44,941 nt of DNA from Intestinibacillus massiliensis (lineage in GTDB: Bacteria > Bacillota > Clostridia > Oscillospirales > Butyricicoccaceae), in assembly GCF_900155735.1 (NCBI RefSeq), contig NZ_LT707060.1:122260-167200 (forward strand), in the 5' to 3' direction. Position 1 is the first letter of the stretch; each line of letters starts with the position of its first letter. The position numbers and the translations under genes were made by a program. This document shows, piece by piece, positions 7,183 through 34,920 of the stretch. The notes beneath the pieces were generated by a model. The model was given only the letters and a program-made list of their open reading frames with translations. It did no database searches and was not told where the DNA came from.

Positions 7183-7184
7183 GC

Positions 7185-8956: not shown

Positions 8957-8971
8957 TGCGTGCAACCCCCT

Positions 8972-9850: not shown

Positions 9851-9879
9851 AAGGATGCTTTCTCCTTCCTAATAGGGCA

Positions 9880-9927
9880 AGAGCGGGAAGCGGCCTGAAA
9901 ACGCCCGCCGCCCGCTCTGCTTTTTTT
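9880..9927. repeat. Hairpin between the URO-D-fold gene and livH
   Basis: Stem AGAGCGGG (9880-9887) with CCCGCTCT (9911-9918), plus inner pairing. The T7 run (9921-9927) is on the plus strand, where no gene is read. On the minus strand the hairpin is not followed by T, so it may tune livH expression or protect the upstream mRNA end. Confidence 0.5.
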
Positions 9928-10975: not shown

Positions 10976-11090
10976 TTTTATTTCCCCTTTGTTCTAAAAT
11001 GAGAGGCCGTTTGAAAGGTCGTGGCGTTTGGCTAGAGCAGCTTATTCCTAAACAGGCTGCCAGAGCAACGGCCCTAAATGGTTTCCAGTG

Positions 11091-11127
11091 TTTCGCCGCG
11101 CCCGTTTGGAAGGCGGGCGCGGCGAAA
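11091..11127. repeat. Intercistronic hairpin downstream of livK
   Basis: 14-bp perfect stem (11091-11104 and 11114-11127) with a 9-nt loop, 38 nt after the livK stop. There is no T-run on the minus strand after it. Such hairpins behind binding-protein genes commonly stabilise the first cistron so the binding protein is made in excess. That role is inferred. Confidence 0.6.
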
Positions 11128-11164
11128 AAAGAAGAGAAGGTTTACGCGAAGAGAAGTAGAGGCG

Positions 11165-12373
11165 TTACGCGTTATAAGAGGCGAACTCGCCGTCCTTGAC
11201 CGTATAGATGAATACGTCCTTGACGACGTACTGGCCGTCAAACGACATCGACTTGCCGGAAGCGACCTCGATGGGCGCCTTGTGCATCTCGTCGATCAGC
11301 GCCTGCGGGTCGGTCGTGCCGACGTTCTTGGCCGCGGTCATCGCGAGCATCGCCGCGTCATAGGCGGAGGCCGCAAAGCCGTCGCACGGGACGTCCGGGT
11401 ACTTTTCCGTGTAGCGTTTGGTAAAGTCCTTGAGGTATTCGCTGTAGTCGTTTTCGCCGTTCATGATGGAATCCAGGTAAACCGGGGTCGTGCCCGCCAG
11501 GATGATGCCGTCCGCCTTGTTGCCGACGAGGTCCAGGAACTCCTGCTTGAACACGTTGCCGGGGCCTGCGAGCTGCACGCCGGTCAGGCCGACCTTTTCG
11601 GTCTGCAGGATGGCGTTCGCAACGTCGTTATACTCGCCGTCGATATAGAGGATAGCCGGATTCGCGGCCTTTGCCTTGGACAGGATCGGGGTGAAGTCCT
11701 TGGTCTGCTGCGGGACGAAGTTCTCGATCAGGACGACCTTGCCGCCCAGGTCCTCATAGGTCTTTTTCATGATCTCCGCGCCCGCGACGCCGAGGTCGGT
11801 GTTCTGGTGGATGATCGCCAGGTCGCCGCCGCCGAACTTTTCAAACAGCAGGTTGGTGGTCTTGGTGCGCTCGAGGTCCGCGATCGGGGAGATCGGGATC
11901 ATCATCTTGCCCATTTCCGGGAAGTCCGGGTGGGAGGTGTTCGGGGAGACGAGCGGCATGGAGTTCTTTTCATAAACCGGCGCCGCCGCCATCGTGACGC
12001 TCGAGCCGAAGGAGCCTACGGTCGCGAACACGTCCTTTTCGCCCACGATCTTGTTGGCGATGTTGATGCCTTCCTTCTGGTCGCCCTTGTCGTCGTTGAT
12101 CTCGAGGACGACGTCTTCGCCGCCCAGGCCGCCAGCCGCGTTAAAATCCGCAACCGCCATTTCCAGCGCGTTCTTATAGCTGATGCCGTACTGCATGGTG
12201 TTGCCGGTCAGCGGGATCGAAGCCGCCAGCGTGTGCTTGGTATACTGGACGCCGCCCTCGGAGGGGGTGCCGTTTGCCGCGGGGGTATCGTCCTTGGCCG
12301 CATCGCCGCCGCAGCCGGTGAGCAGGCTGGCCGCCATGACGCCCGCCATGCATAAAGACAGGAATTTTTTCAT
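11165..12373 (-). CDS. livK: LivK-type substrate-binding lipoprotein
   Basis: 402 aa. A lipoprotein signal peptide (MKKFLSLCMAGVMAASLLTGC) ends at lipobox cysteine C21, followed by a DTPAANGTPSEGG linker. The mature part is a type I periplasmic-binding fold of the amide/branched-chain family: PLTGNTMQYGISYKNALEMAV and ITP-like SPNTSHPDFPEMG are characteristic. It captures the solute outside the membrane for LivHMGF. A longer open frame exists, but ATG 12373 has GGAGG in position. It is the first gene of the operon, behind the promoter at 12489-12517. Confidence 0.88.
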   Translation of the reverse strand: MKKFLSLCMAGVMAASLLTGCGGDAAKDDTPAANGTPSEGGVQYTKHTLAASIPLTGNTMQYGISYKNALEMAVADFNAAGGLGGEDVVLEINDDKGDQKEGINIANKIVGEKDVFATVGSFGSSVTMAAAPVYEKNSMPLVSPNTSHPDFPEMGKMMIPISPIADLERTKTTNLLFEKFGGGDLAIIHQNTDLGVAGAEIMKKTYEDLGGKVVLIENFVPQQTKDFTPILSKAKAANPAILYIDGEYNDVANAILQTEKVGLTGVQLAGPGNVFKQEFLDLVGNKADGIILAGTTPVYLDSIMNGENDYSEYLKDFTKRYTEKYPDVPCDGFAASAYDAAMLAMTAAKNVGTTDPQALIDEMHKAPIEVASGKSMSFDGQYVVKDVFIYTVKDGEFASYNA

Positions 12374-12488
12374 TTTCGTTTCCTCCCAAAATTTTGTTTT
12401 GTACGGCTGCCCCCAAAGCAGGCCGCACGCCATATTTAAGCTCCCCAGGAGTTTAAACCTATTTTCATAGTGGATTAGTATGAATTAG

Positions 12489-15668: not shown

Positions 15669-16688
15669 CTATACCGTCCCGCGCGTGAGCGTCGGCAGCG
15701 CCACCGGGCGGTTTTCCGCCGCAGACTGCCGCGCGGCCAGGCCGATGCGCAGCGCCTGCAGGCCGTCGAACCCGTCCGCCTGCACCGGCGCGTCCCCGGC
15801 GCAGGCGGCTGCAAAAGCGGCAAACTGCGCCGCATAGGCCTGTTCGTAGCGGGGGAGGAACGGCCCGACCGGGGCGGCGTATTCCGCGTGCCCGTCCAAA
15901 TGCAGGGAAACCGTGGAGGCGCGCTCGTTATCCGCCGTCAGGCAGCCGCGCGAGCCGAAGGCCTCGGCGCGCTGGTCGTGCCCATAGGAGCACTGGCGGC
16001 AATTGTCGATCAGCGCGGTCGCGCCGTTTTCAAACTTCAGCATGGCGGCCGCGGTGTCGTAATCCCCGGCTTCCCGGATGGCGGGGTCGGTCAGCACGTC
16101 GCCGTGCGCATAGACCTCCCGCACCTCGCTGCACGCAAGGTACCGCGCCATATCGATATCATGCACCATCATGTCGAGGAAAATACCGCCGGAGCCGGGC
16201 AGGTAGGAGAGCGGCGGCGGCGCGATGTTCCGCGAGGTCAGCTTGAGGGTGCGCACGTCGCCGAGGCCGCCCGCAACGATACGGTCGTGCATCAGGCGGA
16301 AATTCCGGTCGAAGCGCCGCTGGAACCCGACCTGGAGGACAACGCCCGCGCGGTCGGCCGCGCGCATCGCGTCCACGACGCGCTGGGGGGACAGGCTGAC
16401 CGGCTTTTCACAGAAAACGTGCTTGCCCGCGTCCGCCGCTTCCTCGATCAGGCGCGCATGGGAATCCCCCGGGGTGCAGATCAGCACCGCGCCGATCCTG
16501 GGGTCGCGCAGCAGGTCGTGATAATCGTTTGTCAGGCAGGCCACGCCCGCGTCCCGCGCCCAGCCGGCCAGTTCCCGGCGGAGCTGCCGTACCGCGACTG
16601 CGCGGACATGCAGCCCGGTCGCGTGCCGCCGCAGCACTTCCGCGTGCGTTTTGCCGATGCGCCCCGCGCCGATAATCCCCACGTCCAT
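15669..16688 (-). CDS. Inositol 2-dehydrogenase-like Gfo/Idh/MocA oxidoreductase
   Basis: 339 aa. NAD fold GIIGAGRIG at 4-12, and the catalytic set K95 (CEKP), D172 and H176 (LDMMVHDIDM). These occupy the same positions that I recall for Bacillus subtilis IolG. The GFQRRFD and VHDIDMARYL segments are typical of inositol dehydrogenases. It would oxidise myo-inositol or a stereoisomer to an inosose with NAD. AAGGGGG precedes ATG 16688. It is a separate paralog of the iolG at 33019 and carries its own promoter and AraC regulator, which suggests a different isomer or glycoside. Confidence 0.75.
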   Translation of the reverse strand: MDVGIIGAGRIGKTHAEVLRRHATGLHVRAVAVRQLRRELAGWARDAGVACLTNDYHDLLRDPRIGAVLICTPGDSHARLIEEAADAGKHVFCEKPVSLSPQRVVDAMRAADRAGVVLQVGFQRRFDRNFRLMHDRIVAGGLGDVRTLKLTSRNIAPPPLSYLPGSGGIFLDMMVHDIDMARYLACSEVREVYAHGDVLTDPAIREAGDYDTAAAMLKFENGATALIDNCRQCSYGHDQRAEAFGSRGCLTADNERASTVSLHLDGHAEYAAPVGPFLPRYEQAYAAQFAAFAAACAGDAPVQADGFDGLQALRIGLAARQSAAENRPVALPTLTRGTV

Positions 16689-22804: not shown

Positions 22805-23794
22805 TTACTGGTAGTCCGCAACGTTGTCCTTGTTGACCCATACGCACTCGGTGTAGTTGATCGGCTCAACATCTTCGCCGTTCAGGACCTTTACCATGGT
22901 CTCAACGCCCAGCGCGCCCTGGCCGGGTGCATCCTGGGAAACGGTGCCTGCCAGGCGGCCGTCAGCAACAGCCTTGACAGCGTCGGAAACGGCATCCAGG
23001 CCGAAGACCGGGATATCCGCCTGCTTGCCGGCGTCTTCGATCGCCTTCAGGGCGCCCATCGCCATGGAGTCGTTCTGGGAAACAACCGCGTTGATTTCCT
23101 TGCCGGTGGAGAGCCAGTTCTCCATCAGGGTCAGCGCTTCCTCGGTTACCCAGTTCGCGGTCTCCTGGTAAACAACCGTGACGTCCGGGTTCTGCGCCAG
23201 GATCTCGTCATAGCCGGCCTTGCGCTTGAGCTGCGCGTCGGAGCCCATCGGCCCGTAGATGATGACGATGTTGCCCTTGCCGCCGATCGCGTCGACAGCC
23301 TTCTGCATCTCCAGCTTGCTGGCCGCAGCCTCGTCGCCGCCGCAGTAGGAAGCCGCCATGGTGTCCTGGTTCTTCATCTGCTGTACGACGGTGATGACCG
23401 GTACTTTGGCCTCGTTCGCAGACTTGACAGCCGGGACGATGCCGTCCGCGGAAATCGGCTCTACCAGGATGCCGTCGTAGCCCTGGTTGATCGCGGTCTC
23501 GATCTGGTTAATCTGGGTCGCCTGGTCCTGCTTGCCGTCGAATACTTCAACGGTAACGCCCAGCTCCGCAGCCTTTTCCTTTGCGCCCTTGCCGACCGCA
23601 GTGGTGAACTCGTTGGTCTGGTGGCTCATGCACAGTGCGATCTTGTAGTTCTTCTGGCTGGAACCGGCGGTGTCGGCGGTATCGCCCGCGGCCGGCTTCT
23701 GGTCAGCGTCCTTGCCGGCCGTGTCGCCGCCGCAAGCCGCCAGGCTCATAGCCATAGCGCCGACGAGCAGCATGGATAATAATCTCTTCTTCAT
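22805..23794 (-). CDS. Sugar/cyclitol-binding lipoprotein of a CUT2 ABC transporter
   Basis: 329 aa. The signal peptide ends at lipobox LAAC with C21. The mature fold is of the ribose-binding type: IALCMSHQTNEFTTAVGKGAKEKAAELG, QINQIETAINQGYDGILVEP, and the QNDSMAMGALKAIEDAG hinge segment. It hands substrate to the permease encoded just upstream. AGGAGG precedes ATG 23794. The neighbourhood of iol genes makes an inositol-binding protein (IbpA/InoA-like) more likely than ribose; that is context, not sequence proof. Confidence 0.88.
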   Translation of the reverse strand: MKKRLLSMLLVGAMAMSLAACGGDTAGKDADQKPAAGDTADTAGSSQKNYKIALCMSHQTNEFTTAVGKGAKEKAAELGVTVEVFDGKQDQATQINQIETAINQGYDGILVEPISADGIVPAVKSANEAKVPVITVVQQMKNQDTMAASYCGGDEAAASKLEMQKAVDAIGGKGNIVIIYGPMGSDAQLKRKAGYDEILAQNPDVTVVYQETANWVTEEALTLMENWLSTGKEINAVVSQNDSMAMGALKAIEDAGKQADIPVFGLDAVSDAVKAVADGRLAGTVSQDAPGQGALGVETMVKVLNGEDVEPINYTECVWVNKDNVADYQ

Positions 23795-23847
23795 GTTTCT
23801 TCCTCCTAAAAACAATAGGTGAATTTATATCAAAGCCAGGGAAGCGC

Positions 23848-24837
23848 TTAGCTGCGCTTGCCCTTGCCCTTGATATCAAGCAGTACTGCGAAGATGATGA
23901 TGAGGCCCTTGATGATGAGCTGGAAGTTGGAGTTTACGCTCATGATATCCAGGCCGTTGGAGATGACCGCGAGCATCAGCGCGCCGATGACGACGCCGTA
24001 CCACTTGCCGGAGCCGCCGGACATCGAAACGCCGCCGATAACGGCCGCCGCGATGGCGTCCATCTCATAGCTCTGGCCGGCCGTCGGGGAGCCGGTGATC
24101 GTACGGGACGCGACGAGCAGGCCGCAAAGGCCGGCCAGCAGGCCCGCGATCGTGAACACGATGACGCGCAGCTTGCGAACGTTGATGCCGGAGACGGAAG
24201 CCGCGGTTGCGTTGCCGCCGATCGCATAGATGCGGCGGCCAAAGACGGTCTTGCCCAGGATAAACGCGCAGATCGCGACAATAATGATGAGGTAGACCGC
24301 GAGGATCGGGACGACGCCGCCAACCTGGATGGACGCGATGGACTCAAACGCCGGGGTGACGTCGAAAATCGGTGAGCCGCCGGATATGATCAGCGCGAGG
24401 CCGCGGACAATGGTCATGGAGCCGAGGGTCACGATGAATGCCGGGATGGAGCCGTAGGCGATGCCGACGCCGTTGAGTGCGCCGACGAGCGCGCCGACGA
24501 GCAGCGCCAGCAGGATCGGGACGATGAAGGGGTACTGGCCGTTCGCCGCGCCGTCCGCTGCCGGGTGGGCGAACATGGTCGCGATCACGCCGGTCAGCGC
24601 GACCGTCGAGCCGACCGACAGGTCGATATCGCCAGAGATGATGACGAAGGTCATGCCCATGGCGAGGATGCCGTTGATCGCCGTCTGCTTGACGACGTTC
24701 AGCAGGTTACGCGGCGTGACGAAGGTGCCGCCGGAAACGATCGCCAGGATGACGACCAGGGCGATGAAGACAAGGATCAGGCCGAAGTCCTTCATCGAAA
24801 CTTTTTTCGGGCTTAAGGTATTCGTGTTGCTTTTCAT
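23848..24837 (-). CDS. CUT2 sugar ABC transporter permease
   Basis: 329 aa, RbsC-like, with about nine membrane segments. Typical segments are GMTFVIISGDIDLSVGSTVALTGV, the loop GRRIYAIGGNATAASVSGINVRKLR, and DAIAAAVIGGVSMSGGSG. The chosen ATG is 24837 with GGGGAG ten nt upstream; it overlaps nothing and sits 7 nt after the ATPase stop. It forms a homodimeric channel with the two-domain ATPase. Confidence 0.9.
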   Translation of the reverse strand: MKSNTNTLSPKKVSMKDFGLILVFIALVVILAIVSGGTFVTPRNLLNVVKQTAINGILAMGMTFVIISGDIDLSVGSTVALTGVIATMFAHPAADGAANGQYPFIVPILLALLVGALVGALNGVGIAYGSIPAFIVTLGSMTIVRGLALIISGGSPIFDVTPAFESIASIQVGGVVPILAVYLIIIVAICAFILGKTVFGRRIYAIGGNATAASVSGINVRKLRVIVFTIAGLLAGLCGLLVASRTITGSPTAGQSYEMDAIAAAVIGGVSMSGGSGKWYGVVIGALMLAVISNGLDIMSVNSNFQLIIKGLIIIFAVLLDIKGKGKRS

Positions 24838-24844
24838 TGTTATA

Positions 24845-26338
24845 TCACTCCCCAAACTGTGCAGCGTATGTCATAATGCGTTCCTGAGAGAAATCCGGGC
24901 GGCCGACTTCGCCGGTCAGGCGGCCTTCCGACATGACGATGATGCGGTCCGCCAGGCCCATGACCTCCGGGATTTCAGAAGAAATGACGATGACGGCCTT
25001 GCCGTTTTTGACCATTTCGCCGATCAGCAGATAGATATCGCGCTTCGCGCCGACGTCGATGCCGCGCGTCGGCTCATCGAGGATAATGATATCCGGCTCG
25101 GTGAGCAGCCACTTGGCCAGGACGACCTTCTGCTGGTTGCCGCCGGACAGGTTGCCGACGAGCGTCTGGCGGGTGGGCGTCTTGATCGAGAGCTCATCAA
25201 TGTAATGGGTGGAAACTTCCTTTTCCTTGCCGCCGTTGATCAGGCCGTTTTTAAACAGCTGCGACAGGTGGACGAGCGTGATGTTCTGCTCGACCGAACC
25301 GACGAGGTTCAGGCCGGTGAACTTGCGGTCCTCCGTGATGAGCGCGATTTTGTTTGCAATCGCGTCCTTGGGGCTGTGGATGTTCACTTTCTGGCCGCGG
25401 ATGAAGACCTCCCCCGAGGACTTGCGGCGGATGCCGAAAATCGTCTCGACCAGTTCGGAGCGCCCCGCGCCGACCAGGCCGGCAATGCCGAGCACTTCGC
25501 CGGTGCGCAGTTCGAAGCTGACGTTTTTGACCCTTTTGCCCATCGAGATGTTTTTGACCTCAAGGATCGGCCCGCCGATTTCCGCGTCGGCCTTCGGGAA
25601 GACCTCGGTGATGTCGCGGCCGACCATCATGCGGATGAGCTGGTCGCTCGTCATGCCGGCCGCCGGGTTCGTGCCGATGAACTGGCCGTCGCGCAGCACG
25701 GTGATGGTGTCGCAGATTTCAAAAATCTCGTCCATCTTGTGGGATATGTAGATGATGGCGACGTTCTCCGCCTTAAGGCGGCGGATCTGCGTAAACAGCG
25801 TGTCAACCTCATGCTCGGTGATCGCGGACGTCGGCTCGTCCATGACGACGACGCGCGCGTTGAGCGAGATCGCCTTGACGATTTCGATCAGCTGGCACTG
25901 CGCGACGCTCAGGTCGCGCATATAGGCATCGGAGGGGATATCGATATTCAGGTCGGCGAGCAGCGCGCGCGTTTCGCGGAGCATGCCAGCCTTGTCGACG
26001 AGCCCCAGCTTGGTCCGTTTCTCACGTCCGATGAAGACGTTTTCAAAAACCTGCATGTCCAGGATCGGGTTCAGCTCCTGATGGATCATGGCGATGCCGT
26101 GCTCCATTGCGTCACGCGGGTTTTTGCAGGTGATTTTTTGTCCGTCCAGGACGATTTCCCCGGCGTCCGCCGAATAAATGCCCATTAGGATTTTCATCAG
26201 GGTGGACTTGCCTGCGCCGTTTTCGCCCATCAGCGCATGCACCTCGCCCGGGCGAACCTGCAGGGTGACGTCGTTCAGCACCTGAACACCTGGAAAGCTC
26301 TTCATGATGTGATTCATTTCCAGAATGTATTCCGACAT
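24845..26338 (-). CDS. CUT2 sugar ABC transporter ATPase with two nucleotide-binding domains
   Basis: 497 aa, RbsA/MglA/IatA-like tandem ATPase. Domain 1 has Walker A GENGAGKSTLMKILMG at residues 38-53, with the helper sequence IYISHKMDEIFEICD. Domain 2 has the usual degenerate Walker A (GLVGAGRSELVETIFG) and an intact signature LSGGNQQKVVLAKWL with LDEPTRGID. AGGAGG precedes ATG 26338. It is the first gene of the operon ATPase-permease-binding protein, behind the promoter at 26427-26455. Confidence 0.92.
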   Translation of the reverse strand: MSEYILEMNHIMKSFPGVQVLNDVTLQVRPGEVHALMGENGAGKSTLMKILMGIYSADAGEIVLDGQKITCKNPRDAMEHGIAMIHQELNPILDMQVFENVFIGREKRTKLGLVDKAGMLRETRALLADLNIDIPSDAYMRDLSVAQCQLIEIVKAISLNARVVVMDEPTSAITEHEVDTLFTQIRRLKAENVAIIYISHKMDEIFEICDTITVLRDGQFIGTNPAAGMTSDQLIRMMVGRDITEVFPKADAEIGGPILEVKNISMGKRVKNVSFELRTGEVLGIAGLVGAGRSELVETIFGIRRKSSGEVFIRGQKVNIHSPKDAIANKIALITEDRKFTGLNLVGSVEQNITLVHLSQLFKNGLINGGKEKEVSTHYIDELSIKTPTRQTLVGNLSGGNQQKVVLAKWLLTEPDIIILDEPTRGIDVGAKRDIYLLIGEMVKNGKAVIVISSEIPEVMGLADRIIVMSEGRLTGEVGRPDFSQERIMTYAAQFGE

Positions 26339-26426: not shown

Positions 26427-26455
26427 AGAATATCACAAATGTATACAAAAATCAA
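26427..26455 (-). promoter_or_regulatory. Sugar ABC operon promoter with an operator in its spacer
   Basis: Minus strand TTGATT, 17-nt spacer, TATTCT. The spacer contains TTGTATACAT (plus-strand 26439-26448), nine of ten bases identical to the palindrome next to the GntR gene at 27911-27920. This position would let a regulator block the promoter. Confidence 0.65.
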
Positions 26456-26505: not shown

Positions 26506-26539
26506 GTATTGCCGCAATGCAACAGCATTGCGGCAATAC
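26506..26539 (-). terminator. Terminator of the iron alcohol dehydrogenase gene
   Basis: Perfect 15-bp stem (26506-26520 and 26525-26539), 4-nt loop, followed on the minus strand by TTTT. It lies 55 nt past the stop codon. Confidence 0.8.
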
Positions 26540-26594: not shown

Positions 26595-27707
26595 TTAAAG
26601 GCGGGAAGCATAGATCTCACGGATTTCCGCAACAGAAAGCCCTACATAGTTATTGCCGAGCAGGCGCTGCTGGTTGTCGACCGTGCTCTGTGCAAACGGG
26701 TCGAGGTCGGCTTCGGTCGCGCCGTAGTCGCTCATGCGCTTCTTGTGCAGGATCTTTTCAAGCAGGGCGTCGAGGTTGTCGAACGCATCGCCGGTGGTGC
26801 CGAGGATCTCGTTAATCAGGTCGGCAAACTGGGCGATCTTGCCGTCCGGGTCCTTCTTGCGGTAGACGCGCAGCACGTCGACGAAGAACTGGTAGTTGGA
26901 CTCGCCGTGCGCGACGTGGTACTTGCTGCCCAGCGCATAGCTCATGGCGTGGACCGCGGCGCAGCCCGCGTTGCCGAACGCGATGCCCGCCTGGTTGGAG
27001 GCGCGCAGGAACTCGGTGCTCAGCTCGAAACGGGTGTCCGCGCCCTTTTCGGCGATTGCCACATAGCCGCCCAGGATGGTGCGCATCGCCACGTCGGAGA
27101 ACATCTCGGAGAACGGCGTGCACTTCGGGCTGAGGTAGGACTCGACCGCGTGGATCAGCGCGTCGATCGAGCTGGTCGCAAATACGCCGTAGGGCAGGGA
27201 GGACAGGAATTCCGGGATCAGCACGGCATAGTCCGCGTACATGTGCTCGGAAACCAGGCCCATCTTGGTGCCCTTGCGGGTGCGGTTGATGATGGCGATG
27301 TTTGTGACTTCGGAGCCGGTGCCGCAGGTCGTCGGGATGATGACCAGGTTGCGCTTGCGCTCCAGGTTCGCCATATTGTCGTACAGGGCGTCCACGCCGG
27401 ACTCGCCGCCCAGCGCCAGCACCTTGGCGATGTCGATGATCGTGCCGCCGCCGACTGCGATGACGCGGTTGGTCGGGACCTTGTGGGCTTCTTCGAGGAT
27501 GGCGTCCACCATGAGGTCGGAAGGCTCGCCTCCGCCGTACTTCTCCTGGAAGATCGTGTGGCAGGGCAGGTTAAAGCGTTCCATAAAGGGCTTGTAGATG
27601 TATTCGTTGGTCAGGATCAGGTCAGTTTCGCACAGGTTGAAGTCCTTGACAAAGGCTTCAAAGGTGTCGGCCTCGACGATCGTCGGACGGACGGAAAAGG
27701 TTTTCAT
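26595..27707 (-). CDS. Iron-containing alcohol dehydrogenase, 4-hydroxybutyrate dehydrogenase-like
   Basis: 370 aa. From memory it is collinear with Clostridium kluyveri 4-hydroxybutyrate dehydrogenase (371 aa), sharing ILTNEYIYKPF, IFQEKYGGGEPSD, PTTCGTGSEVTN and DNQQRLLGNNY-type blocks. The NAD-binding GGG is at 86-88. Metal ligands are D182, H186, H253 and H267. It interconverts omega-hydroxy acids and semialdehydes (succinate semialdehyde for the reference enzyme). AGGAGG lies ten nt before ATG 27707. It is divergent from the GntR regulator and sits between an inositol-type transporter and iol genes, so a shorter semialdehyde from inositol is a reasonable substrate. Confidence 0.82.
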   Translation of the reverse strand: MKTFSVRPTIVEADTFEAFVKDFNLCETDLILTNEYIYKPFMERFNLPCHTIFQEKYGGGEPSDLMVDAILEEAHKVPTNRVIAVGGGTIIDIAKVLALGGESGVDALYDNMANLERKRNLVIIPTTCGTGSEVTNIAIINRTRKGTKMGLVSEHMYADYAVLIPEFLSSLPYGVFATSSIDALIHAVESYLSPKCTPFSEMFSDVAMRTILGGYVAIAEKGADTRFELSTEFLRASNQAGIAFGNAGCAAVHAMSYALGSKYHVAHGESNYQFFVDVLRVYRKKDPDGKIAQFADLINEILGTTGDAFDNLDALLEKILHKKRMSDYGATEADLDPFAQSTVDNQQRLLGNNYVGLSVAEIREIYASRL

Positions 27708-27908: not shown

Positions 27909-27922
27909 AATTGTATACAATT
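27909..27922. promoter_or_regulatory. Perfect 14-bp palindrome, candidate FadR/GntR operator
   Basis: AATTGTATACAATT. The core fits the TnGTnnACnA pattern known for FadR-type GntR regulators. It lies between the divergent alcohol dehydrogenase and gntR genes, 22 nt upstream of the gntR -35. Confidence 0.6.
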
Positions 27923-27944: not shown

Positions 27945-27973
27945 TTGACTTGCATACATTTCTTTGTTATGCT
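27945..27973 (+). promoter_or_regulatory. Promoter of the GntR regulator gene
   Basis: TTGACT, 17-nt spacer, TATGCT. The first bases of the expected transcript run into the palindrome at 27979-27999. Confidence 0.65.
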
Positions 27974-28047: not shown

Positions 28048-28734
28048 TTGGGCGAATTGACGAAAGACAATAAGGTAAGCCTTGGGGAGACCGTCTACCA
28101 GTACATCCTCAAAATGATCCTGACCGGGGAAATCGCCTGCGGCGAGCGCATCCCGGAGGACAGCCTGGCGCTGCGCCTGGGCATCAGCCGCACCCCGATC
28201 CGCGAGGCGCTGCGCCGCCTGCACGGGGAAGGGCTGATCAACATTTACCCCAAACGGTTCGCCGAGGTGATCTCCTTTACCGAGGCGGATATCCGGAACC
28301 TCGGCATTATCCGGCTGAACCAGGACATCCTAGCCGCCCAGCTGGCCATCTATAACGGCAGCAACGCGGATTTCGACCGGCTGCACGAGATGAGCGAGCA
28401 GTGCCGCTACTACAACAGCCAGGATGATATGTACATGAAAATCAAGGCGGATTCGGATTTCCACCTGATGCTTTCGGAGATCAGCGGCAACCCGCTGCTG
28501 CACGACATGCAGGAGACGCTGTACAAGAAGGTCAGCCTGCTCATGGCGGCGCGCGGCGCGGAGGAGTCCTGCCAGATCGGCCTGCACGACGATATCGTGC
28601 GCGGCCTCAAGGAGCGCAACACCGAGCTGGTGGTGACCAGCCTGATCGAACACCTTTCCGGGTTTTACCATATTACAGGCCTGTCCTGCCGCCTCGAACT
28701 GACGCAGGGGCTCAACAGGCGCACCGCCATTTAG
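28048..28734 (+). CDS. FadR-type (FCD) GntR regulator of the inositol region
   Basis: 228 aa. A winged helix at residues ~10-75 (SLGETVYQYILKMILTGEI, RLGISRTPIREALRRLHGEGLI) precedes an all-helical FCD ligand domain. In the FCD domain, DSDFHLMLSEISGN and the later HDDIVRGL and HLSGFYH carry the usual metal-binding acid and histidines. The only in-frame start with a ribosome-binding site is TTG at 28048, GGGG eight nt before. FCD regulators usually sense carboxylic or sugar acids. It likely controls itself, the divergent dehydrogenase and the sugar transporter through TTGTATACAA-like sites. Confidence 0.82.
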   Translation: MGELTKDNKVSLGETVYQYILKMILTGEIACGERIPEDSLALRLGISRTPIREALRRLHGEGLINIYPKRFAEVISFTEADIRNLGIIRLNQDILAAQLAIYNGSNADFDRLHEMSEQCRYYNSQDDMYMKIKADSDFHLMLSEISGNPLLHDMQETLYKKVSLLMAARGAEESCQIGLHDDIVRGLKERNTELVVTSLIEHLSGFYHITGLSCRLELTQGLNRRTAI

Positions 28735-28852
28735 GGCAGTTCCGGCAGACCATATCTTTTTTATACTTTTTTCATACTGCTTGCACGCCCGGCGGCTGCC
28801 ATCAGCCGCCGGCGGGTGCGGGTGGCCGGCTGGGATTAAGGAGCGCATGCGC

Positions 28853-29722
28853 ATGATACAGTGCTTTGTCAAAAAGAATTACGTGCCGAGCTTCCATCTG
28901 AACCGTGAGCCTCGGCTCATTTACGTCAGTAAAATAGAGGAAGAGGCCAGCGTCCACCCGCGCGTCATGCACGCGCACGACGACCTGGTCGAAATCGTAC
29001 TGATCACGAGCGGCGGCGGCGAATACTCGATCGGCGGCGTGCGCCACAAGGTGCGCCGCGGCGACCTTGCCATCTATAACAGCGGCGTCGTACACGACGA
29101 GCTTTCCGGGCCGGACGTGCTGATCGGCAGCTATTGCTGCGCGGTCGGCGGCCTGCACATCGAGGGCCTGCGCGAAAACGCGCTGATCAGCGACAAGGGC
29201 TCGCCGGTGTTCCACGTGGAGGAGCCCCAGTGCGCCATGCTGGAAAACCTGCTCGACCTGATGTTTTCCGAGCTGGTAAGCGGCCAGGGCGGCGGCGAGG
29301 AGACCTGCCACCACCTGTTGCTGGCGCTGCTGACCTGCTGCTGGCATGTCACGCACGGCGTGCCGCGCGGCGAGGAGTGCAGCGTCAACGTGCTTGGCAC
29401 CCGCATCAAGAAATATATCGACGCGCACTACTCGGAGGACATCAGCCTCCAGTCGATTTCCGAGCACCTGAACATCAGCCCCTATTACCTATCCCACGTA
29501 TTCAAGGACATGACGGGGTATTCCCCGCTCCAATATATCGTGCGCCGCCGCATCGGGGAGGCGCAGACCCTGCTCATTTCGACCGACTATCCCGTCACGC
29601 GCATCGCGTCCATGGTGGGGTATGACAACCCGAGCCATTTTAACCTGCTGTTTGCCAAAAACGTCGGCATGACGCCGCGGAAATACCGCAAAAACTACAT
29701 CGTCGAGAGCAGTTCGGAATAG
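28853..29722 (+). CDS. AraC family regulator upstream of iolD
   Basis: 289 aa with an N-terminal cupin (HARVMHAHDDLVEIVLITSGGGEYSIGG-type block) and a C-terminal AraC domain with ISLQSISEHLNISPYYLSHVFKDMTGYSP and RIGEAQTLLISTDYPVTRIASMVGY. ATG 28853 is preferred over the ATG six nt earlier because AAGGAG is then nine nt away. A hairpin (28789-28812) precedes it. It faces in the iol direction, 215 nt before iolD. The iolD promoter has a good -10 but a poor -35, as often seen with AraC activators, so it probably activates iolDEGB. Confidence 0.85.
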   Translation: MIQCFVKKNYVPSFHLNREPRLIYVSKIEEEASVHPRVMHAHDDLVEIVLITSGGGEYSIGGVRHKVRRGDLAIYNSGVVHDELSGPDVLIGSYCCAVGGLHIEGLRENALISDKGSPVFHVEEPQCAMLENLLDLMFSELVSGQGGGEETCHHLLLALLTCCWHVTHGVPRGEECSVNVLGTRIKKYIDAHYSEDISLQSISEHLNISPYYLSHVFKDMTGYSPLQYIVRRRIGEAQTLLISTDYPVTRIASMVGYDNPSHFNLLFAKNVGMTPRKYRKNYIVESSSE

Positions 29723-29843: not shown

Positions 29844-29865
29844 TGTGCATACAATTGCTACAATA
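29844..29865 (+). promoter_or_regulatory. iolD promoter region: operator-like word and -10 box
   Basis: TTGTGCATACAA (29844-29855) resembles the GntR palindrome but with two extra central bases. TACAAT at 29860-29865 is a good -10; no matching -35 is seen. Confidence 0.4.
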
Positions 29866-29937: not shown

Positions 29938-31890
29938 ATGAACAAAATCAAAATGACCGTTGGTCAGGCAGTCGTCAAGTTCCTGAACAACCAGTACATC
30001 GAGATGGACGGTGTCGAGAACCCGTTTGTAGACGGCATCTTCACCATCTTCGGCCACGGCATGGTCGTTGGCCTTGGCCAGGCACTCGACGAGGATCCCG
30101 GTCGTCTGCGCGTATATCAGGGCAGAAACGAGCAGGGCATGGCGCACGCTGCGATCGCTTACGCGAAGCAGAACAACCGCCGCCGCATCCTGGCTTGCAC
30201 CTCTTCGATCGGCCCCGGCGCGGTGAACATGGTTACCGCAGCCCTGACCGCTTCGATCAACCACGTCCCGCTGCTCCTGTTCCCGTCCGACTCTTTCGCG
30301 ACCCGCCAGCCCGACCCGGTACTGCAGCAGATGGAAGTCCCGTCTGACCTGTCCATTACCGCGTCCGACTGCTTCAAGCCGGTTGCGAAGTATTGGGACC
30401 GTGTAACCCGCCCGGAGCAGCTGATGCCCGCGCTGATCAACGCAATGCGCGTACTGACCGACACCGCCGACTGCGGTACCGCGGTCGTTTCCCTGCCGCA
30501 GGACGTACAGGGCGAGAGCTTTGAGTTCCCGGAATACTTCTTCCAGAAGAGGGTACATCACATTTCCCGCCAGTGCGCCGACGAGTATGAAGTCAACAAG
30601 GCTGTCGAGGTCATCAAGGCTGCGAAGAAGCCGATGCTGATCTCCGGCGGCGGCGTGCGTTATTCCGAGGCCGGCCAGACCGTTATGGACTTTGCCAAGG
30701 CCTTTAACATCCCGGTTTCCCAGACCCAGGCCGGCCACTCCGCCCTGCCGGACTCCTTTGACCTGTCTGTCGGCGGCGTAGGCGTTACCGGCGGCCTGGC
30801 TGCGAACGCGCTGTGCAAGGACTGCGACCTGATCATCGGCGTCGGCACCCGCTTCAACGACTTCGTAACCGGCTCCAAGTGGGTCCTGTTCCGCAACCCG
30901 GACATGAAGGTCCTGGCGATCAACACCTCCGAGTTCCACGCTGAGAAGCTGGACGCGACCCGCTGCGTCGGCGACGCCAAGGTTACCCTCGAGGCGATCA
31001 TGGCCAAGCTGAAGGCGGAGGGCTACAAGTCCGCTTACACCAACGAGATCCAGGAGATCCGCGAGATCTGGGAGAAGGAGCGCCTCTCCGTCCTGGGCGT
31101 ACAGTACCATGGCGAGGGCTTCGGCGAAGGCAAGTTCGTACCGTGCGTACCGTCCTGGACCGAAAAGATCATGACCGACTTTATCCGTGACATCGGCGGC
31201 ACCATCACCGAGTCTAACGCGGTCGGCATCCTCCGCGAGGAGATCGACGACGACGCGATCGTCGTAGCGGCTGCAGGCTCCCTGCCGGCAGACCTCGAGC
31301 GCCTGTGGGTCACCGACGCCAAGGATACTTATCACATGGAATACGGCGCATCCTGCATGGGCTACGAGATCGCAGGCGCGTTCGGCGCCAAGCTGGCCGC
31401 CCCGAAGCAGGAAGTCTACTCGCTGACCGGCGACGGCTCCTTCCTGATGCTGAACTCCGAGCTTGCTACCGCAATGCAGGAGAATGTCAAGATCACCGTC
31501 GTTGTATTCGATAACGCTGCGTTCGGCTGCATCAACAACCTTCAGATGGGCAACGGCGTCGGCACCCTGTGCACCGAGATGCGTCACAGAAACGAAGAGT
31601 CCGGCAAGCTGGACGGCGCTTACTGCTACACCGACTTCGGCAAGATCGGCGAAGGCTACGGCATGAAGGCGTTCTACGCCAAGACCCCGGAAGAGTTCCG
31701 CGAGGCTGTCCGTGCGGCGAAGAAGGAATCCGTTTCCTGCATCATCGACGCAAAGGTACTGCCGAAGACCATGGCCGAGGGCTATGAGTCCTGGTGGCAC
31801 ATCGGCGTAGCTTCCACCTCCAAGTCTGCTGACGTACAGGAAGCCCGCAAGAGAATCGATGAGCACCTGGCTGAGGCTAGAATGTATTAA
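29938..31890 (+). CDS. iolD: IolD: 3D-(3,5/4)-trihydroxycyclohexane-1,2-dione hydrolase
   Basis: 650 aa, close to the usual IolD length. It is a thiamine diphosphate enzyme that opens the ring of diketo-inositol to 5-deoxyglucuronate. N-terminal pyrimidine-binding part: YQGRNEQGMAHAAIAYAKQ, with the acidic residue for the cofactor. C-terminal cofactor motif: GDGSFLMLNSEL to FDNAAFGCINN. The ATG at 29938 has GGAAGG nine nt upstream. Codons here are visibly biased (more GTA, GCT, TCT, CCG) than in neighbours, suggesting high expression. It stands first of the iol genes and is followed by a strong hairpin with T5. Confidence 0.92.
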   Translation: MNKIKMTVGQAVVKFLNNQYIEMDGVENPFVDGIFTIFGHGMVVGLGQALDEDPGRLRVYQGRNEQGMAHAAIAYAKQNNRRRILACTSSIGPGAVNMVTAALTASINHVPLLLFPSDSFATRQPDPVLQQMEVPSDLSITASDCFKPVAKYWDRVTRPEQLMPALINAMRVLTDTADCGTAVVSLPQDVQGESFEFPEYFFQKRVHHISRQCADEYEVNKAVEVIKAAKKPMLISGGGVRYSEAGQTVMDFAKAFNIPVSQTQAGHSALPDSFDLSVGGVGVTGGLAANALCKDCDLIIGVGTRFNDFVTGSKWVLFRNPDMKVLAINTSEFHAEKLDATRCVGDAKVTLEAIMAKLKAEGYKSAYTNEIQEIREIWEKERLSVLGVQYHGEGFGEGKFVPCVPSWTEKIMTDFIRDIGGTITESNAVGILREEIDDDAIVVAAAGSLPADLERLWVTDAKDTYHMEYGASCMGYEIAGAFGAKLAAPKQEVYSLTGDGSFLMLNSELATAMQENVKITVVVFDNAAFGCINNLQMGNGVGTLCTEMRHRNEESGKLDGAYCYTDFGKIGEGYGMKAFYAKTPEEFREAVRAAKKESVSCIIDAKVLPKTMAEGYESWWHIGVASTSKSADVQEARKRIDEHLAEARMY

Positions 31891-32042: not shown

Positions 32043-32942
32043 ATGCTGAACAAAGACAAGGTCCGTATTGGTATTGCACCGATTGCCTGGACCGAAGACG
32101 ACATGCCCGAAATGGGCGCGGAAAACAGCTTCCTGCAGACCATCAGCGAAATCTCCATGACCGATTATGTGGGCACTGAGATCGGCTGCCAGTATCCCCG
32201 CGACCCGGCGATCCTGAACAAGGAATTCGGCCGCCGCGGCATTTCCGCGATCACCGCGTGGATCAGCACCTATATCAATGAGCAGCCCCTGTGGTGGAAC
32301 GAGCGTGCCTTTATCGACCACATGCATTTCCTGAAGGCGATCGGCGCGGAAGTCATCAACGTTTCCGACCAGAGCTTCTCGATCCAGCACCAGTGGAACA
32401 CCCCGCTCAAGTATAAGAAGGTCCTGAACGACGACGAGTGGGAAGTACTGGCCAAGGGCCTTGACCACCTGGGCAAGATCGCTGTTGACAGCGGCATGAA
32501 GATCGTTTACCACCATCACATGACCACCACGGTGCAGACCACCGCGGAGATCGACCGCCTGATGGCGATGACCGACCCGAAGTTCGTCAACCTCATTTAT
32601 GATACCGGCCACCTGACCTTCTCCGGCGAGGATCCGATCGAGATCCTCAAGAAGCATCACGACCGCATCAAGCACGTCCACCTGAAGAACGTGCGCAAGG
32701 CCGCGATGGACAAGTGCTATGCGGAGGAGAAGAGCTTCCTGCGCTCCATCCCCGAAGGCGTATTCACCGTACCGGGCGACCCGGACGGCTGCGTGGACTT
32801 CCCGACCGTATTCAAGCTGCTCGACGAGTATAACTACGAGGGCTGGCTGGTCGTCGAGGCCGAGCAGGATCCGGCGATCGCAAACCCGCTCGAGTATGCC
32901 CGCATGGCGCGCGCGTACGTCCGCGAGCACACCGGCCTCTAA
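32043..32942 (+). CDS. iolE: IolE: myo-inosose-2 dehydratase
   Basis: 299 aa, TIM-barrel of the sugar isomerase/epimerase-like family. It dehydrates 2-keto-myo-inositol to the diketone used by IolD. Typical IolE segments are GIAPIAWTEDDMPEMG at the start, VYHHHMTTTVQT with metal-binding histidines, LIYDTGHLTFSGEDP, HVHLKNVR and VVEAEQDP with the final glutamate ligand. AAGGAGG lies upstream of ATG 32043. It is the second iol gene, 152 nt after iolD. Confidence 0.93.
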   Translation: MLNKDKVRIGIAPIAWTEDDMPEMGAENSFLQTISEISMTDYVGTEIGCQYPRDPAILNKEFGRRGISAITAWISTYINEQPLWWNERAFIDHMHFLKAIGAEVINVSDQSFSIQHQWNTPLKYKKVLNDDEWEVLAKGLDHLGKIAVDSGMKIVYHHHMTTTVQTTAEIDRLMAMTDPKFVNLIYDTGHLTFSGEDPIEILKKHHDRIKHVHLKNVRKAAMDKCYAEEKSFLRSIPEGVFTVPGDPDGCVDFPTVFKLLDEYNYEGWLVVEAEQDPAIANPLEYARMARAYVREHTGL

Positions 32943-33018: not shown

Positions 33019-34038
33019 ATGAAAACTGTTAAGATTGGTTCCGTCGGCCTGGGCCGTCTGGGCTATGAGCATGCGAAAAATATTGCGACCCGTGTTCCTG
33101 GCGCCGAACTGACAGCAATCTGCGACGTTGCCGCCGACCGCGTGCGGGAAGTGGCGGAGGAACTAGGCGTCAAGTACCAGTACACCGACTTTGCCGAGAT
33201 GTGCGCCAACCCGGAACTGGATGCGATCGCCATCGTATCGCCCTCCATGTTCCACGGCGAGCAGATCAAAATGGCGCTGGACGCGGGCAAGCACGTCTTC
33301 TGCGACAAGCCGCTCGACACCACGGTGGAGAAGTGCAAGCTTGCGGAGAAGGCGGTCGAAGCGCATCCGGACAAGGTGTTTATGCTGGGTTTCATGCGCC
33401 GCTACGACCCCTCTTATGTAAAGGCAAAGGCGAAGCTTGACAACGGCGATATCGGCCGCGTCATCCTGGTGCGCTCCTATACCCAGGACCCGCGCACCAC
33501 GATCGAAGGCACCCTGAAATTCGCGCCGCACTCCGGCGGCCAGTTCCTCGACATGTGCGTGCATGACATCGACCTGGTGCGCTGGTTCACCGGCTCTGAG
33601 CCGAAGAATGTCTGGGGCATCGGCGGCGTGTTCGAGTTCGAGCTGTATCGCGAGCTGAACGACGGCGACAACGTTGCGTGCATGATGCAGTGCGAGAACG
33701 AGGCGATGGCGTTTATGTTCGCCGGCCGCGCTTCCGCGCACGGCTGCAACGTCGAGACCGAGATCGTCGGCACCCGCGGCACCCTGCGCATCGCGTCCGT
33801 CGGCACGGACAGCATGCTGGAAGTGATGAGCAAGCACGGCGTATGCCGCGAATGCTACCCGGATTTCCTGGCGCGCTGGCACGAGGCCTATACGAACGAG
33901 ATGATCGAATTCGTAAGCTGCATCCGCGAGGGGCGCAAGCCGGAGGTCACCGTTTACGACGGCACCGCCGTTTCCGAAATCGCCTACCGCTGCAAGGAAT
34001 CCTTTGAATGCGGCGAGATGCTCCCGTTAAGGGACTGA
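33019..34038 (+). CDS. iolG: IolG: myo-inositol 2-dehydrogenase
   Basis: 339 aa. NAD fold GSVGLGRLG at 7-15; catalytic K97 in CDKPLD, D178 and H182 in LDMCVHDIDLVRW; FMRRYDPSY follows the second strand. It oxidises myo-inositol to scyllo-inosose with NAD, the first step of the pathway. AGGAG with suitable spacing precedes the ATG. It lies 76 nt after iolE. Two other Gfo/Idh/MocA paralogs are in the window (5362-6396, 15669-16688); this one is assigned by its setting. Confidence 0.88.
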   Translation: MKTVKIGSVGLGRLGYEHAKNIATRVPGAELTAICDVAADRVREVAEELGVKYQYTDFAEMCANPELDAIAIVSPSMFHGEQIKMALDAGKHVFCDKPLDTTVEKCKLAEKAVEAHPDKVFMLGFMRRYDPSYVKAKAKLDNGDIGRVILVRSYTQDPRTTIEGTLKFAPHSGGQFLDMCVHDIDLVRWFTGSEPKNVWGIGGVFEFELYRELNDGDNVACMMQCENEAMAFMFAGRASAHGCNVETEIVGTRGTLRIASVGTDSMLEVMSKHGVCRECYPDFLARWHEAYTNEMIEFVSCIREGRKPEVTVYDGTAVSEIAYRCKESFECGEMLPLRD

Positions 34039-34128: not shown

Positions 34129-34920
34129 TTGAAGTACACAAGCAAGGGCCCGCTGGTAAAGGGCTACAATGCAATGGTCACCGACCAGAACCCGGAAATG
34201 ATGGGGATGGACTTTGGCATCTTTGCGATGACCGCGGGCGATAAGGCCAACTTTGACTATGCGCAGGAAGTCGTTTACGACCTGCTGTACGGCAAGGTTA
34301 CGCTCACCTGGGACGGCAAGTCCGAGACCGTGGAGCGCAAGGACTGCTTCCACGTCGGCCCGATCGTGCTGCACGTGCCGGAAAACACCGCGGTTACTGT
34401 AGAGTGCCTGTCCGACAAGGCGGAAATCGCGATCACCAAGACCGCCAACCCCAAGAAGTTCGAAGCGCGCCTGCTGCGCGACAACGACCTGCTGTGCGCG
34501 AATGAAGCACGCGGCAAGGGCATCATGAACGATATTTCCGCCCGCCTGGTGCGCACCTTCTTCGACCGCTCCAACTGCCCGGAGACCAACTTCTTCATCG
34601 GCGAAGTGGTACATGAGCCCGGCAAGTGGTCCTCCTACCCGCCGCATCACCATGTCGAGCCGGAACTGTACTACTACAAGTTCCTGCCGGAAGACGGCTA
34701 TGGCTACGGCGAGATCGACGACGACGTTTACAAGCTGCGCAACAACGACCTGACCGGCATGCCGAACGGCGCCACACATTCCCAGGTCGCAGCGCCGGGG
34801 TATTCCATGTTCTACCTGTGGGCGATCCGCCTCCAGGACGACAAGGACATCATCACCACGACCGACCCGCAGTACGCCTGGTGCGCGGAGCCGGACGCAA
34901 AGTTCTTCCCGGACATCTAA
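34129..34920 (+). CDS. iolB: IolB: 5-deoxy-glucuronate isomerase
   Basis: 263 aa double-cupin enzyme converting 5-deoxyglucuronate to 2-deoxy-5-keto-gluconate. Family landmarks: PGKWSSYPPHHHVEPELYYYKF (metal-binding HHH and E), and THSQVAAPGYSMFYLWAIRL. The usual HP in the last motif is HS here. The start is TTG at 34129 with a perfect AGGAGG eight nt upstream. It ends the iol cluster and is followed by a strong hairpin. The next enzymes of the pathway, IolC and IolJ, are not in the window. Confidence 0.9.
   Translation: MKYTSKGPLVKGYNAMVTDQNPEMMGMDFGIFAMTAGDKANFDYAQEVVYDLLYGKVTLTWDGKSETVERKDCFHVGPIVLHVPENTAVTVECLSDKAEIAITKTANPKKFEARLLRDNDLLCANEARGKGIMNDISARLVRTFFDRSNCPETNFFIGEVVHEPGKWSSYPPHHHVEPELYYYKFLPEDGYGYGEIDDDVYKLRNNDLTGMPNGATHSQVAAPGYSMFYLWAIRLQDDKDIITTTDPQYAWCAEPDAKFFPDI

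Follow-up and report, generated by a model that had tools for sequence, protein, structure and literature searches.

The window analysed here, a stretch of 44,941 nucleotides (44.9 kb) from Intestinibacillus massiliensis, carries a gene for an iron-containing reductase of the 4-hydroxybutyrate dehydrogenase type (HBD), which lies between a set of sugar transporter genes and a cluster of inositol catabolism genes (Table 1). The open reading frame is a real gene. On its 3' side and on the same strand are three genes of the sugar transporter that the first-pass annotation of this DNA had placed next to it; they resemble ribose/galactose-type models and all score under the respective cut-offs. On the other side, a divergent GntR-family regulator and an AraC-family regulator precede the iolDEGB genes, after which come pyrimidine genes. 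The upper inositol pathway is represented in the window by IolD and IolE, both over their cut-offs. The iolB-type gene, short of its NCBIfam cut-off, passes the Pfam KduI/IolB threshold at 156.4 bits; its start was called at a TTG, and a start at 34174 is possible. Other IolG copies in the genome score over the cut-off of 355, at 370.9 and 444.7 bits. The second iolG of the window is linked to the cluster by function only, and that part of the window is without the operator-like word described below.

Table 1. Genes and operator-like words of the window, numbered from its first nucleotide.
Feature	Position	Strand	Basis or remark
Second iolG	15669..16688	-	370.9 bits, over cut-off 355
Sugar ABC transporter substrate-binding protein (RbsB type)	22805..23815	-	Below curated cut-off
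Sugar ABC transporter permease	23848..24855	-	Below curated cut-off
Sugar ABC transporter ATP-binding protein (MglA/XylG/RbsA type)	24845..26338	-	599.1 bits, curated cut-off 828 missed
Operator-like word TGTATACA	26440..26447	.	About 100 bp ahead of the transporter ATPase gene
HBD, iron-containing 4-hydroxybutyrate-dehydrogenase-type reductase	26595..27707	-	ORF of 370 aa, ATG 27707 to stop 26595; Pfam Fe-ADH; solved relative
Operator-like word within palindrome TTGTATACAA (27911-27920)	27912..27919	.	Between HBD and GntR gene
Second operator-like word TGCATACA, HBD/GntR intergenic	27951..27958	+	Word search
GntR-family regulator	28048..28734	+	Divergent from HBD; start codon uncertain; candidate operator-word reader
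AraC-family regulator	28847..29722	+	54-55% identity with an AraC-family regulator next to class A loci L068 and L077 (see text)
Operator-like word TGCATACA	29846..29853	+	About 90 bp ahead of iolD ATG (29938)
iolD	29938..31890	+	868.6 bits, over cut-off 715
iolE	32043..32942	+	374.3 bits, over cut-off 290
iolG-type dehydrogenase	33019..34038	+	330.9 bits, NCBIfam cut-off 355 missed
iolB-type isomerase (KduI/IolB)	34129..34920	+	NCBIfam 94.9 bits, cut-off 205 missed

HBD scores over the gathering threshold in both Fe-ADH Pfam domains (PF00465, 93.4 bits; PF25137, 126.9 bits). Its closest solved structure, matched over the full length at E 1.2e-109, is PDB entry 30sm, named Cvir-Hbd2 by its depositors, with 182 of 364 aligned residues (50%) identical. 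These results uphold the original description of the protein as a 4-hydroxybutyrate dehydrogenase-like enzyme. The curated NCBIfam model for 4-hydroxybutyrate dehydrogenases, NF058672, which covers one lineage, gives HBD 112.9 bits against a cut-off of 500; because the HBD of a second locus in this genome, L018, also fails (117.8 bits), the model seems not to cover this branch. The name used here therefore rests on the depositors' label for Cvir-Hbd2 and on gene context. D182, H186, H253 and H267 are unchanged in all 47 rows of the HBD alignment, and are the putative metal ligands, following the D/H/H/H pattern of the Fe-ADH family. Thirty-one alignment positions set HBD classes A and B, defined below, apart from class C, and Cvir-Hbd2 has many of these residues in common with classes A and B. 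Reading the substrate from class-specific residues was considered and set aside, none of the 31 being assignable to the active site without coordinates. Taken with its context, the protein is best supported as a predicted semialdehyde-type reductase tied to inositol catabolism.

Within the window, the word TGYATACA is confined to the four places listed in Table 1, that is, upstream of the transporter, of HBD/GntR and of iolD. The six strand matches compare with 1.04 expected, and none of 100 shuffles scored as high, a count that is not a blind test because the word had been picked by eye from these same promoters ahead of counting. A genome-wide count gave 25 strand matches of TGTATACAA (20 places) against nine for the reversed pattern; the iolD site in the window (TGCATACAA) is a variant outside this count. 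Ten of these places are no more than 315 bp upstream of genes for sugar-binding proteins, transporters, IolE, Gfo/Idh or IolG-type proteins, HBD/GntR or AbfD (the 4-hydroxybutyryl-CoA dehydratase type), while the remaining ten are inside or next to other genes, some of them unidentified. Two of the first ten are copies of TGTATACA about 80 and about 120 bp upstream of a stand-alone pair of genes for AbfD and a CoA-transferase (CAT) on contig C33 (L087); TGTATACA also precedes a further iolE, the second, and a Gfo/Idh gene (L021). The operator that HBD and the transporter had been said to share can thus be recognised as a candidate. Its binder may be the window GntR protein, which is 35-39% identical to regulators near HBD at three loci of relatives (L088, L089 and L091, all class B); at two of these (L088 and L089, 35-38% identical) the operator word precedes HBD as well. 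Inositol would be the presumed inducer of the gene set that bears the word.

The classical lower inositol pathway could not be recognised. An iolA gene was not found in the window, and no gene of the whole genome reaches the curated threshold (256.3 against 448.5 bits at best), in agreement with the earlier observation that iolA is missing. Likewise, no gene in the genome passes the iolC cut-off (best 187.4 against 300 bits). The best-scoring gene encodes a PfkB kinase and has genes for a PTS transporter and a HAD hydrolase next to it (L016); it therefore probably belongs to another sugar operon. No IolJ was found when nine stretches of this genome (the window, L016-L021, L086 and L087) were compared with the IolJ seed. 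Among 87 genomes of the family, iolA exceeds its curated cut-off in none, iolC in five and iolD in 46. The models themselves work, since among 14 control genomes iolA passed in five and iolC in three.

A related-locus search in a collection of genome contigs returned two loci only. The genome encodes four HBDs of this type: the window gene and those at L017, L018 and L019. The L017 gene has two class I CoA-transferase pairs and a further transporter of the ribose type as neighbours, and the L019 gene is without such partner genes. At L018, HBD shares a row with AbfD, CAT, thiolase, enoyl-CoA hydratase (crotonase) and 3-hydroxybutyryl-CoA dehydrogenase; the row follows genes for an ABC transporter whose binding protein is of family 3, a type that often carries amino acids. 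This row is read as a predicted 4-hydroxybutyrate route of the GABA type. Its HBD has the same closest solved relative as the window HBD (30sm), and the operator word occurs there inside the HBD coding sequence only, with none upstream.

The pair at L087 is thus the second AbfD-CAT pair of the genome, so that the CoA transferase and abfD genes that the first-pass annotation had suggested looking for are present twice. The two AbfD proteins are identical (99.0% in DNA) and the two CAT proteins 89% identical. The L087 AbfD matches 1u8v, the solved Clostridium-type 4-hydroxybutyryl-CoA dehydratase of GABA metabolism, at E 4.3e-225 over 480 residues and is over threshold in the HpaB Pfam domains; no NCBIfam model matches it at E 1e-60 or better, and the L018 AbfD scores under the cut-off of the HpaB monooxygenase model (183.4 against 480.2). 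C98, C102, H291, C298 and Y295 are unchanged in 21 AbfD sequences and presumably correspond to the cluster-ligand positions of 1u8v and the Clostridium aminobutyricum enzyme. For the L087 CAT, the closest solved structures are 4-hydroxybutyrate CoA-transferases (3eh7, E 1.1e-147; 3gk7; 3d3u, to 5.8e-134), and CAT is under the cut-off of the NCBIfam butyryl-CoA:acetate model (364.2 against 674.8). A single transketolase N-half is present in the genome at E 1e-50 or better (C34:101348, locus L086), adjoining iolB and DeoR genes. Since the fetched stretch is without the operator word, it looks like the housekeeping copy, and as the only one found at this threshold it would serve both roles. Transketolase presence was discarded as evidence in itself: nearly every genome of the family (82 of 87) has an N-half at this threshold, and therefore only an extra copy inside the gene rows counts.

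Such rows are found in relatives, for which iolD or HBD neighbourhoods were fetched and genes called with our own ORF caller, which overlooked or shortened some genes in the fetched loci. In class A the order is iolD-iolB-HBD-CAT-AbfD-tktN-tktC, where tktN and tktC together form a split transketolase. All seven genes are present at seven loci (L066, L068, L069, L070, L077, L078 and L098). L067 has six, its stretch stopping inside tktN; L103, L104 and L152-L156 show parts of the class A set, truncated where the contig or the fetched stretch ends; and L079 stops after HBD. Variants include iolD-iolB-HBD followed by another gene (L075), iolB-HBD-CAT-AbfD without iolD (L072) and one genome, G033, with the class A set in two places (L071 and L097). 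An IolG-like gene lies between AbfD and tktN at L077. In class B, the order is HBD-tktN-tktC-zinc dehydrogenase-AbfD-CAT, to which L088 and L089 add genes for a glycyl radical enzyme with its activase and for a sodium symporter (families scanned on L088). Class C is the L018 type. The transketolases of classes A and B have no residue set that distinguishes them from housekeeping ones, save one C-half position and two at the alignment ends. In the window itself, none of CAT, AbfD and transketolase accompanies HBD in a row; HBD is linked to AbfD and CAT by the common operator word in this genome and by the single row in class A.

Counts across the family were made on 81 HBD rows (matches at E 1e-70 or better), 70 iolD rows and 73 AbfD rows, and are lower bounds for adjacency because many rows are truncated at contig ends. 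In 17 of the 70 iolD rows (from 46 genomes) an HBD is no more than 6 kb away, where uniform placement would give about 0.7; these 17 of the 46 iolD-bearing genomes are the window genome and 16 others. By the same distance, five of the 70 iolD rows have iolC and none has both iolC and HBD. AbfD is within 6 kb of 58 of the 81 HBDs. At least 18 HBDs have tktN within 8 kb and at least ten within 300 bp, as counted from 51 hand-chosen tktN rows, so that omitted rows could only raise the transketolase counts; five of these ten have AbfD within 6 kb, and none has iolD within 6 kb. At most 18 of the 81, the window HBD among them, have neither AbfD nor tktN nearby.

Beyond the family, iolD was detected at E 1e-180 or better in 22 of 257 order-level genomes, four of them outside the family. 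All four out-of-family loci (L146-L149) carry homologues of iolG, aldehyde dehydrogenase, iolE, iolD, iolB, iolC and iolJ in that order, and have no HBD, CAT, AbfD or transketolase in the 19.5 kb fetched per locus. In L147, the one of the four that was scanned, both IolA (544.4 against 448.5) and IolC (396.2 against 300) exceed their cut-offs. As the iolC-iolJ loci are without these genes nearby and the HBD-iolD loci are without iolC, the HBD-CAT-AbfD-transketolase and iolC-iolJ-iolA sets look like alternatives in sequence comparisons. This two-way split does not cover every iolD locus, since a third type (L074, L081-L085), found by DeoR, iolB and a housekeeping-type transketolase, has neither HBD nor iolC within the fetched stretch.

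Compared with 13 class A IolD proteins, the window IolD shows 83-88% identity, as against 47-51% with those of DeoR-type clusters and 45% with that of the iolC-type locus L080. Between the window HBD and those of class A the identity is 53-60%. For the comparison of HBD sequences, a short L029 match and matches below 38% identity were dropped, and 68 sequences were collapsed to 46. The window HBD groups in trees with the HBD of L034 (64% identical) and that of L022, a contig from an uncultured member of the Eubacteriales, with support of 99/97 with outgroups and 86/94 without. The possibility that it is a class A gene that has moved was considered, the constrained tree being disfavoured at an AU p of 0.023, in a test that is weak because the group was chosen after the first tree, the class-A-like row L095 was left outside it and long branches are present. 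This value makes orthology to class A HBD doubtful. If the tree is right, HBD would have joined inositol genes twice.

The first question is the size of the molecule on which HBD acts. AbfD-type enzymes act on four-carbon gamma-hydroxyacyl-CoA, and AbfD is not known to act on 3-hydroxypropionate, though the CoA-transferase might be broader. Given the partners of HBD in relatives and the operator word before the L087 pair, it is likely that the product is a C4 acid bound for CAT and AbfD and not a C3 acid. We consider it reasonably probable that inositol breakdown here takes an alternative lower pathway ending in butyrate, with HBD as its semialdehyde reductase. Read directly from the sequences are the genes themselves, their linkage in relatives, the common operator-like word and the iolC and iolA scores below cut-off; the exact C4 acid and the butyrate product are what we infer from them.

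Such a pathway might run as follows. IolG, IolE, IolD and IolB produce 2-deoxy-5-keto-gluconate, as is established for these families, from which point IolC, IolJ and IolA would be bypassed. Counted from the keto end, this compound has the C3/C4 configuration of fructose and xylulose, and it is therefore a plausible transketolase donor. Transketolase would take off its two terminal carbons, leaving a C4 semialdehyde that is most simply malic semialdehyde (3-hydroxy-4-oxobutanoate). HBD would then reduce this to 3,4-dihydroxybutyrate, or make 4-hydroxybutyrate if the 3-hydroxyl had been lost earlier. CAT would form the CoA ester of the gamma-hydroxy acid, and AbfD would take off the 4-hydroxyl to give the enol of acetoacetyl-CoA (or crotonyl-CoA), and then butyrate. 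Whether the C4 semialdehyde originates from transketolase is evenly balanced in our judgement; if it does, malic semialdehyde is somewhat favoured over succinate semialdehyde. That the L087 and L018 AbfD proteins are identical speaks for plain 4-hydroxybutyryl-CoA as the substrate, or for a tolerant enzyme, rather than for a 3,4-dihydroxy compound as dedicated substrate; if the substrate is the plain one, an earlier step must remove the 3-hydroxyl. In its most complete form the proposal is tentative: an undescribed pathway in which transketolase replaces IolC and IolJ and cleaves 2-deoxy-5-keto-gluconate to malic semialdehyde, with the C2 unit passing to the pentose-phosphate pool, HBD forms 3,4-dihydroxybutyrate, and CAT and AbfD yield acetoacetyl-CoA, which would be new for a 4-hydroxybutyryl-CoA dehydratase. 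The glycyl-radical operons with transketolase, HBD, AbfD and CAT would feed the same chemistry from other polyols.

A C4 route could also do without transketolase, with some other dehydratase and reductase giving succinate semialdehyde, which HBD would convert to true 4-hydroxybutyrate. Extra sugar-isomerase-like TIM-barrel and Gfo/Idh genes do occur in the vicinity of class A rows and downstream of operator words, and the shared AbfD sequence of L018 and L087 would suit such a substrate. However, the Gfo/Idh gene beside the sugar transporter at the class A locus L066 is by score an ordinary IolG (438.1 against 355 bits), and the split transketolase sits inside the class A rows, so that we regard this route as unlikely. 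It is rather improbable that HBD is an ordinary 4-hydroxybutyrate dehydrogenase, supplied with succinate semialdehyde from elsewhere and merely neighbouring the inositol genes. The resemblance to Cvir-Hbd2, which the L018 HBD shares, and the AbfD common to both pairs are what this would predict, but the genome already has the L018 row with its own HBD and no operator word upstream, HBD is found by iolD in 16 other genomes, and the word that HBD has in common with the transporter and iolD occurs nowhere else in the window.

The least probable reading, in which HBD turns malonate semialdehyde from the classical iolC/iolJ route into 3-hydroxypropionate and regenerates NAD, draws on the missing iolA, on the word shared by HBD and iolD and on 3-hydroxypropionate formation from inositol as published for Mitsuokella with a 3-oxopropionate reductase (in the available part of PMC7618129), and is strongly disfavoured by the low iolC score, by the lack of iolC within 6 kb in all 17 iolD loci with HBD, by the CAT and AbfD partners in relatives and by the operator word at L087. 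This was the proposal of the first-pass annotation, which was probably wrong on substrate and product; its inositol-linked semialdehyde-type reductase in a genome without a recognisable iolA stands.

The preferred reading, an inositol pathway ending in butyrate, can be set beside published observations. In the faecal microbiota of one donor, [13C6]phytate gave [13C4]butyrate and [13C2]acetate with no other intermediates, according to the available text of that study (PMC7618129). Two labelled acetyl-CoA would also yield [13C4]butyrate from fully labelled phytate. A 2025 review, in the part available, describes gut inositol-to-butyrate conversion as uncharacterised and names Dysosmobacter and Intestinibacillus (PMC12482443). 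By title and start of abstract, no such route appeared among the open-access matches listed for transketolase or 4-hydroxybutyryl-CoA dehydratase with inositol, nor among those for malonic semialdehyde reductase with inositol. The gene rows provide a concrete, testable gene set for inositol-to-butyrate conversion. They also caution that genomes annotated by iolA and iolC would here be taken as incapable of completing inositol degradation. Should the proposed transketolase and dehydratase reactions prove true, two well-known enzymes would have substrates not found in the open-access literature searched.

Known systems resemble the proposed one in part. Inositol or phytate is converted to 3-hydroxypropionate in Mitsuokella jalaludinii, where a semialdehyde reductase likewise closes inositol breakdown; in the available text, the product differs in having three carbons, the reductase is annotated as a 2-hydroxy-3-oxopropionate reductase and AbfD is unnamed (PMC7618129). 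Anaerostipes forms propionate from inositol, and the accessible portion of that report describes a similarly anaerobic process without the IolA reaction and with CoA-transferase chemistry, which differs in using IolC/IolJ and a 3-oxoacid CoA transferase on 3-oxopropionate (C3) (PMC8355322). Cvir-Hbd2 is, like HBD, a member of the iron-ADH family, with the 50% identity extending over the full length, whereas HBD sits in an inositol catabolism context, from which its substrate is predicted, and is far from the NF058672 cut-off. The 2-hydroxy-3-oxopropionate reductase of Mitsuokella presumably belongs to a different enzyme family from HBD. The fermentation of 4-aminobutyrate via 4-hydroxybutyrate in Clostridium aminobutyricum uses HBD, 4-hydroxybutyrate CoA-transferase and AbfD. 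The same three enzyme types would act serially here, as they would in the L018 row, and AbfD and CAT match solved members; the proposed feed, in contrast, is IolG, IolE, IolD and IolB with transketolase and not GABA or succinate, and a separate HBD and a second AbfD-CAT pair carry the operator word. With the Bacillus subtilis iol pathway (iolABCDEFGHIJ; compare L146-L149), the system has IolG, IolE, IolD and IolB in common, but IolC and IolA are below cut-off in this genome, and the class A rows have HBD, CAT, AbfD and an extra transketolase instead.

Two AbfD (4-hydroxybutyryl-CoA dehydratase-type) genes of the window's own genome, one in L018, a row of HBD (4-hydroxybutyrate-dehydrogenase-type reductase), AbfD and CAT (CoA-transferase-type) genes with 3-hydroxybutyryl-CoA dehydrogenase, crotonase and thiolase genes, and one in the stand-alone AbfD-CAT pair of L087, encode identical proteins, with DNA identity of 99.0%. 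Because identical or near-identical pairs recur within genomes, namely those of the relatives G002 (L093/L105), G054 (L067/L091) and G006 (L072/L089), their sequences suggest recent duplication or gene conversion. Two sugar-binding-protein genes (L131, L134), one at a contig end, share N-terminal sequence and upstream TTGTATACAA, and are probably a duplicate or an assembly overlap.

In the window, the perfect inverted repeat that lies past the HBD stop codon and ahead of the first transporter gene is, by its sequence, possibly a terminator or an mRNA-stabilising hairpin. Genes resembling a branched-chain-amino-acid-type ABC transporter also occur there. At the HBD paralogue locus L017, the neighbours of HBD are a CaiB-like gene and a cupin gene, two pairs of class I CoA-transferase genes and a ribose-type ABC transporter. 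The putative operator word was absent from this tabulated stretch in the word search of fetched loci, and the neighbourhood could represent a separate acid pathway. Elsewhere in the genome, iolB, DeoR and the transketolase halves tktN and tktC are followed by malic enzyme and a second iolE. A second-type iolD adjoins iolB in relatives (L082, L083) and is missing from this genome.

The class B operons (L088, L089) combine a split transketolase, HBD, AbfD and CAT with an uncharacterised glycyl radical enzyme, its activase, a sodium symporter and an idonate-5-dehydrogenase/threonine-dehydrogenase-like gene. TTGTATACA words precede both HBD and the symporter. These operons may supply the C4 route proposed from inositol to butyrate with carbon from a different polyol or sugar acid.

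Coordinates of the features discussed
Feature	Location	Basis
ABC transporter-like genes	window 6475-12433	
URO-D (uroporphyrinogen-decarboxylase-family) gene, amid transporter-like genes	window 9926-10975	family scan
Binding protein, Peripla_BP_6	window 11165-12433	family scan
Inverted repeat, 15 bp, 4-base loop	window 26506-26539	
HBD paralogue locus	L017:74-9746	
AbfD	L018:7745-9190	
AbfD	L087:9592-11037	
iolB/transketolase region	L086:11337-15200	
Second iolE region	L021:620-2944	
Class B operon	L088:104-12163	
Class B operon	L089:1-11806	
Sugar-binding-protein gene	L131:14770-15466	
Sugar-binding-protein gene	L134:5984-6952
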